Assembly (NCBI RefSeq): GCF_017939705.1
Contig: NZ_JAGKSQ010000002.1
Span: 62,001 to 126,000, forward strand
DNA: 64,000 nucleotides
Direction: 5' to 3'
Source of the DNA: Halalkalibacter suaedae
Lineage (GTDB): Bacteria; Bacillota; Bacilli; Bacillales; Bacillaceae_D
The notes beneath the pieces are model-generated. The model was not told the DNA's origin. It saw only the letters and a list, made by a program, of their open reading frames with translations, and ran no database searches. This document shows positions 5,231-11,677 of this stretch, piece by piece; position 1 is the first letter of the stretch, and the number at the start of each line of letters is the position of its first letter. A program made the translations under genes and the position numbers.

Positions 5231-5317
5231 TAGGAAAAAGAATTGGTAGAAAATCTTTCAATCTAGTTGTTAGTTAGCAATTATTTCGCTATGGTTAAGA
5301 AAGTAAATGAATATGAA

Positions 5318-5383
5318 TTCGTATAACCTCACGCGATACGGGCTGAGGGTTTCTACTTGGAACCGTAAATTCCTGACTACGAA
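5318..5383 (+). promoter_or_regulatory. Purine riboswitch aptamer, guanine class
   Basis: P1 is TTCGTA (5318-5323) paired with TACGAA (5378-5383). After P1 comes TATAA, then a P2 arm with loop GATACGG (one bulged C), the invariant TTTCTAC joining region, and a P3 arm with loop CCGTAAA. The base that pairs with the ligand is C5377 in the joining sequence GACTACG; C indicates guanine or hypoxanthine, U would indicate adenine. P3 is weak (a U-U mismatch near its base). It lies 70 bases before the amidohydrolase gene. Confidence 0.92.
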
Positions 5384-5417
5384 AATAGTGCCTTGGCACT
5401 TTTTTCGTAGTCTTTTT
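5375..5417 (+). terminator. Riboswitch expression platform: terminator sharing the P1 3' strand
   Basis: GACTACGAAAA (5375-5385) pairs with TTTTCGTAGTC (5402-5412), with an inner AGTGCC/GGCACT stem, then five T. The left arm contains the whole 3' strand of aptamer helix P1 and the ligand-pairing C5377. Ligand-stabilised P1 would therefore prevent the terminator, as in the adenine pbuE switch, which turns genes ON. Confidence 0.8.
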
Positions 5418-5453
5418 CTTGTTTTTAGACGATAAATTCATGAGGTGATAGTG

Positions 5454-6785
5454 GTGAAGACGTTAATCAAACAGGCGGAAATTGTAACAATGAATGGAAA
5501 AGAAGAGATTTTTGTTGGGGATATTTATATTGAGGATGATCGAATTACAGCCATTGGTCGAGAACTCAATCCGAAAGAAGTTGATAAGATGGTCGATGGA
5601 AGAGGGAAAACAGTTATTCCGGGTTTTGTTCAAACCCATATCCATCTATGTCAGACCGTTTTTCGGGGCAAGGGTGATGATCTAGAATTAATGGATTGGC
5701 TCAAAAAAAGAATCTGGCCGCTTGAAGCTGCACATGACGAGGAATCCTTGTATTATTCTGCTTTACTAGGAATAGGAGAATTGATTCAAAGTGGAACAAC
5801 ATCGATTGTTGATATGGAGACAGTTCATCATACCGATTTTGCTTTCCAAGCAATTGCCTCTAGTGGGATCAGGGCACTTTCTGGGAAAGTAATGATGGAT
5901 AAGGGCGATGAAGTGCCAAAGCGTCTCCAGGAAAAAACAGCTCAATCGATTCAAGAAAGTGTTGATTTGCTTGAGAAATGGCATAATTTTGATAATGGTC
6001 GGATTAAATATGCGTTTTCTCCTCGTTTTGTTGTTTCTTGTACAGAAACATTATTAAAGGAAGTCGCAAATTTATCAAAGCAATATAATGTTAATGTACA
6101 TACTCACGCATCCGAAAATCTCGGAGAAATTGAAATTGTAGAACAGGATACTGGTATGCGGAATATCGTCTATCTTGATCATCTCGGTCTTGCTAATGAT
6201 CGATTAATTTTGGCACATTGTATTTGGTTAAACGATGAAGAAAAACGAATTATTAAGCAAAAAGGAATCCATGTTAGTCATTGTCCTGGTTCTAACTTAA
6301 AGCTAGCCTCTGGAATTGCTGAAATACCAAGTTTGCTTGAACAAGATATTTCGGTAAGTCTTGGAGCCGACGGTGCACCGTGTAACAATAACTTAGACAT
6401 GTTTAATGAAATGCGTTTAGCTGCTCTCATCCAGAAGCCAGAGCACGGTCCAACTGCGATGAATGCACGCACTGTCTTTCGAATGGCAACGATAGGTGGG
6501 GCGAAAGCGATTGGTCTAAGTGAGGAAATTGGTAGTTTGGAGGTTGGTAAAAAAGCTGACCTTGCGATACTAGACTTAAATGATTTTCATATGTACCCAT
6601 CTGCGGGTGTTGATCCAATCTCTAGAATTGTGTATTCGGCAACAAGGGCAGATGTCGTTTCAACAATGGTTAACGGAAAGTTTGTCATGGAAAATCGTAT
6701 CATGAAAACAATGGATAAGGCGATTGTCTTGCAAGAAGCTAATGCTTCCATTCAACGTTTAACTAATAGAATAGGTGCTTTGTAA
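5454..6785 (+). CDS. Amidohydrolase, probable guanine/purine deaminase
   Basis: 443 residues from GTG 5454 (GAGGTGAT upstream; GTG 5451 also possible). It belongs to the metal-dependent amidohydrolase superfamily, TrzA/AtzB/SsnA/GuaD-like branch: H-I-H-L at the first strand, V-H-T-H-A-S-E for the third metal histidine and catalytic glutamate, A-H-C at the next strand, and G-A-D-G-A-P for the final Asp. Database labels for this branch vary (5'-deoxyadenosine or S-adenosylhomocysteine deaminase, guanine deaminase, chlorohydrolase). The upstream guanine-class aptamer with an ON-type platform argues that the substrate is guanine or a close purine, so that the cell makes the catabolic enzyme when guanine is in excess. 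That specificity is inference. A strong terminator follows, so it is monocistronic. Confidence 0.8.
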   Translation: MKTLIKQAEIVTMNGKEEIFVGDIYIEDDRITAIGRELNPKEVDKMVDGRGKTVIPGFVQTHIHLCQTVFRGKGDDLELMDWLKKRIWPLEAAHDEESLYYSALLGIGELIQSGTTSIVDMETVHHTDFAFQAIASSGIRALSGKVMMDKGDEVPKRLQEKTAQSIQESVDLLEKWHNFDNGRIKYAFSPRFVVSCTETLLKEVANLSKQYNVNVHTHASENLGEIEIVEQDTGMRNIVYLDHLGLANDRLILAHCIWLNDEEKRIIKQKGIHVSHCPGSNLKLASGIAEIPSLLEQDISVSLGADGAPCNNNLDMFNEMRLAALIQKPEHGPTAMNARTVFRMATIGGAKAIGLSEEIGSLEVGKKADLAILDLNDFHMYPSAGVDPISRIVYSATRADVVSTMVNGKFVMENRIMKTMDKAIVLQEANASIQRLTNRIGAL

Positions 6786-10611: not shown

Positions 10612-10626
10612 AGTGAGAAAAATGTA

Positions 10627-10654
10627 TAGACTTTTTCAATTATTCTCCTATAAT
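10627..10654 (+). promoter_or_regulatory. Promoter of the c-di-GMP riboswitch transcript
   Basis: TAGACT (10627-10632), 16-bp spacer, TATAAT (10649-10654), eleven bases before the aptamer. Confidence 0.5.
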
Positions 10655-10664
10655 AAAATTAATA

Positions 10665-10755
10665 AGAAAATTGAAAAGGCATACTTATTGAAAGATAAGG
10701 ACGCAAAGCTATGGGCCTTCGCGATACTCGCATGGTTGCCAGGTTGCCAATTTCT
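10665..10755 (+). promoter_or_regulatory. Cyclic-di-GMP-I (GEMM-I) riboswitch
   Basis: P1 is formed by AGAAAATTG (10665-10673) and CAATTTCT (10748-10755). Inside are the AAGGCATACTTAT arm closed by a GAAA-type tetraloop, the highly conserved GGACGCAAAGC joining segment, the GGGCC tetraloop-receptor side, and the closing ATGGTTGCCAGGTTGCC. These match the GEMM-I consensus throughout. No clear intrinsic terminator lies between the aptamer and the AGGAGG at 10783, so control may be by ribosome-site access, or a terminator I cannot see. Confidence 0.9.
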
Positions 10756-10795
10756 CCGATATGGGGTTTTTGGGCTTCATTTAGGAGGAAATGAC

Positions 10796-11677
10796 ATGAA
10801 AAAGGTTATTACAATGATGGCTGCTTTTTGTATTTTAGCAACGCTATTCCCGGTTCAGCTAAGCAATGCTAGTGATTCTCAGGTAAAGGCTACATGGCTT
10901 TGGAACCCTTATGAATTAGTTTCTCAATCTTCTGAAGTGTTGACATTTTTACAATCCAACCAGGTCACAGATGTCTTTCTACAAATTGATCGAGACCTAC
11001 CTCATACTATATATCAATCGTTTATTGAACGTGCTTCCGAGCAGAATATAAATATACATGCTCTTGATGGAGCACCTACCTGGGCAACGCAAAAGGGATC
11101 TGCTGAGTATCAACCTCTGATAAACTGGTTGCGTAGCTATCAATCATTGTCTACAGAGAACCAACGCTTTTCTGGAATCCATACTGATGTTGAGCCATAT
11201 CTTCTATCAGAATGGAATACCAGCCGCCAGAAAACGATTCTCTACTATCAGAACTCGGTGAAAGCCTTTCAAAATCTCGCACAGGAATTAAATATTGCAT
11301 TTGCGGCGGATATTCCTTTTTGGTTTGATGAAATATCTTTTCAAAATAAATCATATGGCAATGGTTTGTTATCTAATTGGGTACAAGCTAACACGGATAT
11401 CGTGACAATTATGGCATATCGTAATTTCGCCGATGGACCAAATGGGATCATTCAATTATCAAATAACGAAATAATTACTGGATCAAAACTAGGGAAAAAA
11501 GTGGTTATTGGAGTAGAGACAGGTTACTCTGAAGAAGGATCTCATTTGAGCTTTTATAATAATGGAAGAGCTACTATGGAAACCGAATTAACAAAGGTAA
11601 ATGATGCATTCAATGAGTCTACTAGTTATCACGGAATTGCGATTCATCATTATGCAAGCTGGAAGGAATTAAAGTAG
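10796..11677 (+). CDS. Secreted TIM-barrel-like protein under c-di-GMP riboswitch
   Basis: 293 residues from ATG 10796 with AGGAGG nine bases upstream. The frame is open 183 bases further up, but that extension is the riboswitch and is not coding. Residues 1-25 form a signal peptide (K-K, hydrophobic core, S-N-A-S cleavage region). The mature part starts with a strand/helix alternation, has G-I-H-T-D-V-E-P-Y at about residue 130 and A-A-D-I-P-F-W near 170, and T-I-M-A-Y-R near 210, which is the strand-end acidic layout of glycoside-hydrolase-type barrels. No named family can be assigned. Its control by c-di-GMP points to a role in surface attachment, matrix or cell-wall polysaccharide handling during the motile-to-sessile switch (inference). 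Confidence 0.75.
   Translation: MKKVITMMAAFCILATLFPVQLSNASDSQVKATWLWNPYELVSQSSEVLTFLQSNQVTDVFLQIDRDLPHTIYQSFIERASEQNINIHALDGAPTWATQKGSAEYQPLINWLRSYQSLSTENQRFSGIHTDVEPYLLSEWNTSRQKTILYYQNSVKAFQNLAQELNIAFAADIPFWFDEISFQNKSYGNGLLSNWVQANTDIVTIMAYRNFADGPNGIIQLSNNEIITGSKLGKKVVIGVETGYSEEGSHLSFYNNGRATMETELTKVNDAFNESTSYHGIAIHHYASWKELK

Follow-up and report, generated by a model that had tools for sequence, protein, structure and literature searches.

A predicted guanine-class ON riboswitch before a probable guanine deaminase gene in Halalkalibacter suaedae and its relatives

The window analysed here is a 64,000-nucleotide stretch of the Halalkalibacter suaedae genome (contig NZ_JAGKSQ010000002.1, positions 62,001 to 126,000 of the forward strand). 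Scanning of the whole window with cmscan revealed a purine riboswitch (RF00167) at 5299-5399 (+), with a score of 64.1 bits (E 7.3e-9) against a gathering score of 37 bits, in the leader of a gene for an amidohydrolase-superfamily deaminase. The features of the locus are collected in the table; the GTG at 5454 is preferred as the start of the deaminase gene over position 5445, as given in the ORF list. Elsewhere in the window, a c-di-GMP-I riboswitch (RF01051, 72.1 bits) was found at 10668-10751 (+), within an ORF listed at 10613-11677, the start of which has therefore probably been placed too early.

Table. Features of the deaminase locus, in window coordinates
Feature	Position	Strand	Basis or detail
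Purine-class riboswitch aptamer	5314..5387	+	RF00167 64.1 bits; family model R1 82.6 bits
Aptamer P1	5318-5323 with 5378-5383	+	Rfam alignment
Aptamer P2	5327-5334 with 5342-5348	+	Bulged C5332
Aptamer L2	5335-5341	+	Reads GATACGG
Aptamer P3	5357-5362 with 5370-5375	+	
Aptamer L3	5363-5369	+	Reads CCGTAAA
Aptamer positions 73 and 74	A5376 and C5377	+	Rfam alignment
Intrinsic terminator	5375..5417	+	MFE fold; overlap shared by 67/70 homologous loci
Terminator arms, 11 pairs	left 5375-5385 (GACTACGAAAA), right 5402-5412	+	
Terminator inner stem, 5 pairs	5387-5391/5396-5400	+	
Terminator T-run (T5)	5413-5417	+	
Residual 5-pair hairpin and T-run, possible with P1 formed	5387..5405	+	Pattern scan; fold series at length 5402
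Probable Shine-Dalgarno GAGGTGAT	5442..5449	+	Before GTG 5454; predicted by reading of the sequence
Amidohydrolase-superfamily deaminase, probable guanine deaminase	5454..6785	+	NF005557, PF01979, PRF motif

The Rfam alignment places C5377, which lies within GACTAC, at position 74 of the aptamer, in agreement with a previous sequence-only reading of this DNA that had named C as the ligand-pairing base and assigned the aptamer to the guanine class. The junctions in the same alignment are guanine-I-like (J1/2 TATAA, J2/3 GTTTCTAC and J3/1 GACTAC), and both loops match the guanine-I letters, such that the window copy combines C74 with canonical letters in all three junctions. These core letters, together with the gene that follows, suggest guanine as the probable ligand. 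The foot of P3 is irregular, with a U.G pair between 5357 and 5375 and a U.U mismatch between 5358 and 5374. When the aptamer is folded alone, with tertiary contacts uncounted, a competing GGTTTC/GGAACC hairpin is more favourable than the correct aptamer fold (-16.1 vs -14.2 kcal/mol), and this hairpin displaces P3 at all lengths of the fold series described below. A family covariance model (R1), constructed from 39 aptamers located upstream of the deaminase gene, scores the window aptamer at 82.6 bits at 5314-5387, a match that is partly by construction since the window aptamer is itself among the 39.

The terminator is the minimum-energy fold of 5299-5420, at -39.9 kcal/mol compared with a mean of -22.4 for shuffled sequences (z -5.64, none of 200 shuffles being equally low). 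As the sequence-only reading had claimed, the whole of the P1 3' strand is contained within the left arm of the terminator. Since P1 and the terminator make use of one strand, a stable P1 excludes the full terminator, which amounts to an ON design in which the two structures are mutually exclusive, as in pbuE-like switches, and which departs from the OFF platform that is usual for guanine-I, albeit customary and not strictly defining. In a series of folds calculated by transcript length, P1 is present in the minimum-energy fold from 5382 to 5402 and the terminator appears from about 5406, indicating that an interval of ~20 bases of transcription is left for ligand binding. The terminator state is favoured over that of the aptamer by some 15 kcal/mol (-34.8 vs -19.9, calculated without ligand or tertiary energy), and the switch would therefore need to act kinetically. 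With the switch ON, the residual hairpin may still permit some termination. An antiterminator located upstream of P1, which would reverse the logic, was searched for by ungapped pairing and none was found above chance, the longest complementary run being 7 pairs compared with a mean maximum of 7.5 in shuffled sequences. A promoter scan returned 2 sites against an expectation of 1.2 and was uninformative. As judged from its predicted folds, the leader is wired as an ON switch, and regulation in the cell presumably runs in the same direction.

The arrangement is retained well beyond the window. The deaminase gene is present in 18 of 41 family genomes, that of the window included, and these loci, together with 80 named loci kept out of 351 from the genome collection, comprise 98 deaminase loci. 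An aptamer recognised by a CGTAT...CTACG pattern, which requires CTACG and would miss CTATG forms, is located within 450 bases upstream in 70 of the 98. Removal of 11 repeats leaves 62 of 87 distinct genomes with the aptamer upstream, the window's among them; these two counts, and that of 57 given below for base 73, depend on our own list of 11 loci judged to be duplicate genomes. The notion that the aptamer is unique to its own genome was rejected, as the GA[CT]TA pattern was too narrow and relatives read GCTACG. RF00167 scored above 37 bits in each of 12 relatives' aptamers that were scanned, and a renewed search of the 28 aptamer-less loci with the family model yielded two weak matches only (L075, 22.4 bits; L053, 20.3 bits). 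Eighteen of these 28 have a common five-gene order, the first gene of which is adenine deaminase-like by its sequence.

The ON wiring proposed in the sequence-only reading is evident not just at this locus: P1 lies inside the terminator in 67 of the 70 loci at which an aptamer precedes the deaminase gene, repeats still counted, where overlap was scored from the lowest-energy fold over T-runs and required at least 4 of the 5 CTACG bases to be paired. The exceptions are L023 (3/5, no terminator seen), L065 (3/5) and L104 (no T-run by the rule applied). The upstream neighbours of the aptamer loci differ, including a multicopper oxidase in 22 Paenibacillus loci and an aminotransferase in L041, and the persistence of the overlap despite these differences argues against a mere terminator of the upstream gene. 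The helices are also well supported across 39 aligned aptamers, with pairing in 93.6% of cells, changes on both sides in 12 of 19 pairs, and none of 500 shuffles reaching the observed pairing support; the second P3 pair (columns 45-63), being unpaired in 24 of 38 aligned aptamers, is unsupported. Damaged aptamers that retain a terminator-like hairpin were observed before the deaminase gene at L008/L025, L008 having a shortened J2/3, and at L075, in which P2 is apparently lost. A further deaminase copy with QTHIHLCQ, at L234 (G100), is preceded by an aptamer that reads GCTCTCTAGAAGG...CCTAACTACG, unlike the main family.

Overlap between P1 and the terminator was then compared with a control set of 62 switches, comprising L001-L006 from the own genome and L105-L160, the latter being mostly the best-scoring switch per family genome together with every match from five other genomes; L105 and L134 are the same site, entered twice. 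Six purine switches are encoded in the own genome. The C74 switches L001, L002, L003 and L006, which precede purE, xpt, an NCS2 permease gene and guaA, respectively, have terminators away from P1, and the overlap is present in the U74 switch L004, before an MFS transporter-like gene (targets named from translated starts). Across the whole set, 44 of 50 C74/A73 switches are without overlap, the six that have it being the window's own, L153 and L156 (both before 8-oxoguanine-deaminase-like genes), L133, L135 and L145. Overlap was observed in all three U74 (adenine-type) switches and in seven of nine C74/G73 switches; of these seven, five are found before the present deaminase and two before a FAD-oxidoreductase-like gene, and the two without overlap both precede NCS2 permeases. 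The previous claim that the logic is inverted relative to the usual guanine switches is supported, the window switch differing in this respect from 44 of the controls. However, guanine-sensing ON switches of the guanine-II type have already been predicted, according to the available text of PMC9295807, and the inversion is accordingly less exceptional than first implied.

Purine aptamers in other settings were also noted. The overlap values cited here for L209-L236 are from a first scoring run, which placed position 74 wrongly in four purE loci and seemingly misclassified L146; those for L001-L006 and L105-L160 are from a corrected rescoring. C74 aptamers precede a conserved FAD-oxidoreductase-like gene, named from its sequence, in Paenibacillaceae (L157, L159, L194, L203, L209, L210, L212-L215, L217, L222, L227, L230, L238, L248 and L252), with ON overlap in seven of the eight loci scored in the first run, outside which fall L213, L217, L227, L230 and five others; the gene of L194 has no NCBIfam match. 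G73 aptamers (CTTGCTACGA) are located before a DMT/EamA-like transporter gene, likewise named from sequence, at L197, L198 and L202, the gene of L197 having no NCBIfam match. These three are apparently ON-wired, as judged by eye, and a purine exporter is a possible target. G73 is also present, mostly as GATCTGGCTACG, in switches before NCS2 purine permeases of Paenibacillaceae (L138, L143, L190, L192, L206, L220, L221, L223, L225, L226, L228, L236, L237, L239-L244, L246 and L247). Nine of ten such entries scored in the first run, in which L138 and L235 are one place, are without ON overlap, indicating that G73 does not go hand in hand with ON wiring. L207, before what we judge by eye to be a Rieske-type oxygenase gene, has a U51G aptamer that we likewise take to be xanthine-II-like, and L199 and L200, before a gene judged in the same way to encode a nucleosidase-like lipoprotein, carry GACTTCG in J3/1.

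The sequence-only reading described the regulated gene as encoding a purine-type amidohydrolase, a description that can be sharpened. The enzyme scores 738.6 bits with the NCBIfam model NF005557 (5'-deoxyadenosine deaminase; cut-off 522), a cut-off passed by all six homologues scanned, and 258 bits with PF01979. It falls under the cut-offs of the guanine deaminase models TIGR02967 (259.0 vs 375.4) and NF006679 (235.5 vs 351), and of the 8-oxoguanine deaminase model NF006055 (306.2 vs 532 bits). The best whole-length PDB match, which speaks against a guanine deaminase, is the MTA/SAH deaminase 4f0r (233.1 bits), with human guanine deaminase 2uz9 at 173.1, and the N-terminal fragment also best matches MTA/SAH-deaminase-type amidohydrolases. 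Over residues 135-230, conversely, the five highest-ranked of nine PDB sequences belong to guanine deaminases or to an entry related to them, and PRF is aligned in four of the five best matches to this region. HIHxxQ at the first metal site is a mark of guanine deaminases. PRF and HIHLCQ occur together in all nine aligned deaminases, that of the window included, and both motifs are absent from two of two 8-oxoguanine deaminases (alignment A2), so that the window enzyme has the motif combination of an amidohydrolase-type guanine deaminase. It is more probably a guanine deaminase than a 5'-deoxyadenosine deaminase, judging from this motif, the gene neighbours and the association with pucD, and the name attached to NF005557 looks doubtful for this Bacillota group, since guanine deaminase better fits PRF and the neighbours.

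Genes for xanthine dehydrogenase and urate breakdown are located near the deaminase gene in some relatives. At L041, genes for OHCU decarboxylase, HIUase, allantoate amidohydrolase and an aminotransferase-like protein precede the riboswitch and deaminase, which are followed by pucC-like, pucD and pucE-like genes (the aminotransferase, pucC and pucE assignments being best matches under cut-offs). In the 41 family genomes the deaminase and a pucD over its cut-off occur together in 14 and are both absent from 19, with four genomes having the deaminase without pucD and four the reverse (Fisher p 1.5e-4, uncorrected for kinship). The pucD of the own genome scores 830.3 bits against a cut-off of 783.65.

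Taken together, the leader is probably a guanine-class (C74) transcriptional ON riboswitch before a probable guanine deaminase gene, through which guanine would induce its own breakdown. The P1 3' strand would be complete once the polymerase reaches 5383, and binding of guanine between this point and ~5406 would stabilise P1 and withhold the strand from the left arm of the terminator, permitting transcription of the deaminase gene. With guanine absent, P1 would be displaced and the 11-pair terminator would stop transcription. The enzyme, for which guanine is the likely substrate, would convert guanine to xanthine, feeding a xanthine/urate pathway.

The identity of base 73 complicates this picture for the wider family. 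Among the 62 genomes with a deaminase-linked aptamer, position 73 is occupied by G in 57 and by A in five, namely the window's and four others, as opposed to A73 in 49 of 53 C74 aptamers that precede other genes (the control set with six deaminase-linked entries set aside; the exceptions are L138, L143, L157 and L159). A tree built from 92 deaminases places the row of the window beside 11 G73 rows, mostly from Halalkalibacter or the same genus, on an unstarred branch. At least four changes of base 73 are required among rows with an aptamer, three being forced by well-supported branches, in what is a quick tree with a midpoint root that does not fix the direction of change. The prevalence of G73 indicates that the pocket of the wider family may be something other than a simple guanine pocket. 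It is conceivable, if somewhat improbable, that the deaminase-linked aptamers form a distinct G73 variant class of ON switches that senses a guanine derivative, e.g. 8-oxoguanine or a guanine nucleoside, the window's A73 copy having drifted back to guanine or being intermediate. Published purine variants, in which junction changes shift specificity (the portion of PMC9295807 available), lend this some credence, but U22, U51 and C74, which the same text gives as the guanine-contacting bases, are unchanged in the deaminase-linked aptamers. The enzyme motif and neighbours likewise indicate guanine, and G73 is found before NCS2 permeases too. Moreover, 8-oxoguanine-deaminase-like genes have a different aptamer of their own in the same Paenibacillus genomes, L153 occurring with L148 in G041 and L156 with L152 in G042 (the L153 and L156 genes being named by likeness to the scanned L201 and L196). 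For this reason an identification of the G73 family with the published 8-oxoguanine class was set aside.

Membership of the published guanine-II class is an unlikely explanation for the window switch. That class keeps U22, U51 and C74, has one base inserted in J2-3 and is predicted to be ON in Paenibacillus, and in many relatives of the window aptamer P3 does carry one additional base at its foot (alignment column 46). Yet the window copy has guanine-I junction lengths and letters, as compared with class features taken from the text of PMC9295807 alone, in the part available, in which members mostly precede phosphoribosyltransferase genes and have junction insertions; with the exception of xpt, no phosphoribosyltransferase gene was noted among the Paenibacillaceae matches inspected, a subset of those listed.

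Still less probable is a scenario in which the hairpin simply terminates the MATE gene lying upstream, the aptamer being a decaying, non-switching remnant. The MATE ORF extends to 5230, leaving about 84 bases before the aptamer, and the imperfect P3 foot, the competing hairpin, the damaged copy L008 and the weak match L075 could all feasibly be signs of decay, but the guanine-I core junction and loop letters are intact in the window copy, and its terminator and P1 overlap in the way seen in relatives whose upstream genes are different. An OFF switch whose antiterminator logic is hidden, in keeping with the 44 controls and with the common OFF behaviour of guanine switches (PMC9295807), is scarcely credible given that the terminator takes the P1 3' strand itself, so that a stable P1 blocks it, and that upstream complementarity does not rise above chance.

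In the literature search, which lay outside most subscription journals, no report of a guanine ON switch before a guanine deaminase gene was found, and the available parts of PMC11477304, PMC2258182, PMC3766115, PMC7373994 and PMC9430930 do not describe the deaminase association. According to the text of PMC9295807 that could be consulted, a guanine-II aptamer has an affinity for guanine of 8.3 nM or better, the class differs from guanine-I by the J2-3 insertion and by changes in J3-1, and a variant that senses 8-oxoguanine is mentioned as well; the structure of guanine-II (Li 2025) is covered in the accessible part of PMC13374515. What appears here is an ON-wired guanine-class switch before a probable guanine deaminase gene, kept in Bacillaceae and Paenibacillaceae, guanine-sensing ON regulation itself being a prior prediction (PMC9295807, available text).

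As a candidate for substrate-inducible control the leader is a good one, judging from its predicted structure and the gene it precedes. If the preferred reading of a guanine-induced deaminase is right, a guanine-class RNA would gain an inducible catabolic role, linking guanine to its own deamination across two bacterial families; the likely substrate behind the name of NF005557 would be corrected for this deaminase group; and a guanine-inducible transcriptional ON element would become available, along with a set of naturally occurring ON switches that vary in a single base next to the ligand pocket. Tentatively, the two families may share an old, unreported C74/G73 class of ON aptamers, with a pocket tuned unlike that of guanine-I, before an unrecognised guanine deaminase. 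The window copy would then be a natural A73 case, through which the influence of a single base on specificity could be traced between switches that otherwise match.

Among known systems, the pbuE adenine switch is one in which ligand-stabilised P1 permits transcription. The pbuE-type adenine ON riboswitch (RF00167, U74) resembles the window switch in having the P1 3' strand in the left arm of the terminator, an overlap also found in L004 of the own genome, but the window switch has C74 instead of U74, which places it outside the adenine class, and precedes a deaminase gene as opposed to an MFS transporter-like gene. The 8-oxoguanine riboswitch has reportedly been described from Paenibacillaceae as an ON switch that is always located before an 8-oxoguanine deaminase gene. 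It shares with the window switch a purine scaffold, an ON platform and an amidohydrolase deaminase gene; presumed examples, however, precede an NF006055 enzyme (L201, 582.7 bits; L196, 584.3 bits; cut-off 532), a model to which the window enzyme does not belong, and those at L153 and L156 read GGGGGCTCTAC with A73 compared with GGGTCTCTAC and G73 in most of the deaminase family. The window copy fits guanine-I (RF00167, C74) in its junction and loop letters, A73 and C74 included, and differs in being ON instead of the usual OFF, and in preceding a probable catabolic gene instead of one for synthesis, salvage or uptake. Guanine-II, as described in the available text of PMC9295807, is likewise a predicted ON switch of Bacillota with U22, U51 and C74 kept, though its members are mostly found before phosphoribosyltransferase genes and have junction insertions that the window copy lacks. 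The same text gives xanthine-II and 2'-dG-III as purine-scaffold, predicted ON switches before purine-catabolic genes, as is the window switch, but xanthine-II is distinguished by U51G and longer junctions, and 2'-dG-III deviates in all three joining regions. Finally, some members of xanthine-I (NMT1) are located before amidohydrolases that resemble guanine and 8-hydroxyguanine deaminases, according to the part of PMC7373994 available, although this RNA has an unrelated fold and, unlike the window switch, senses xanthine and uric acid.
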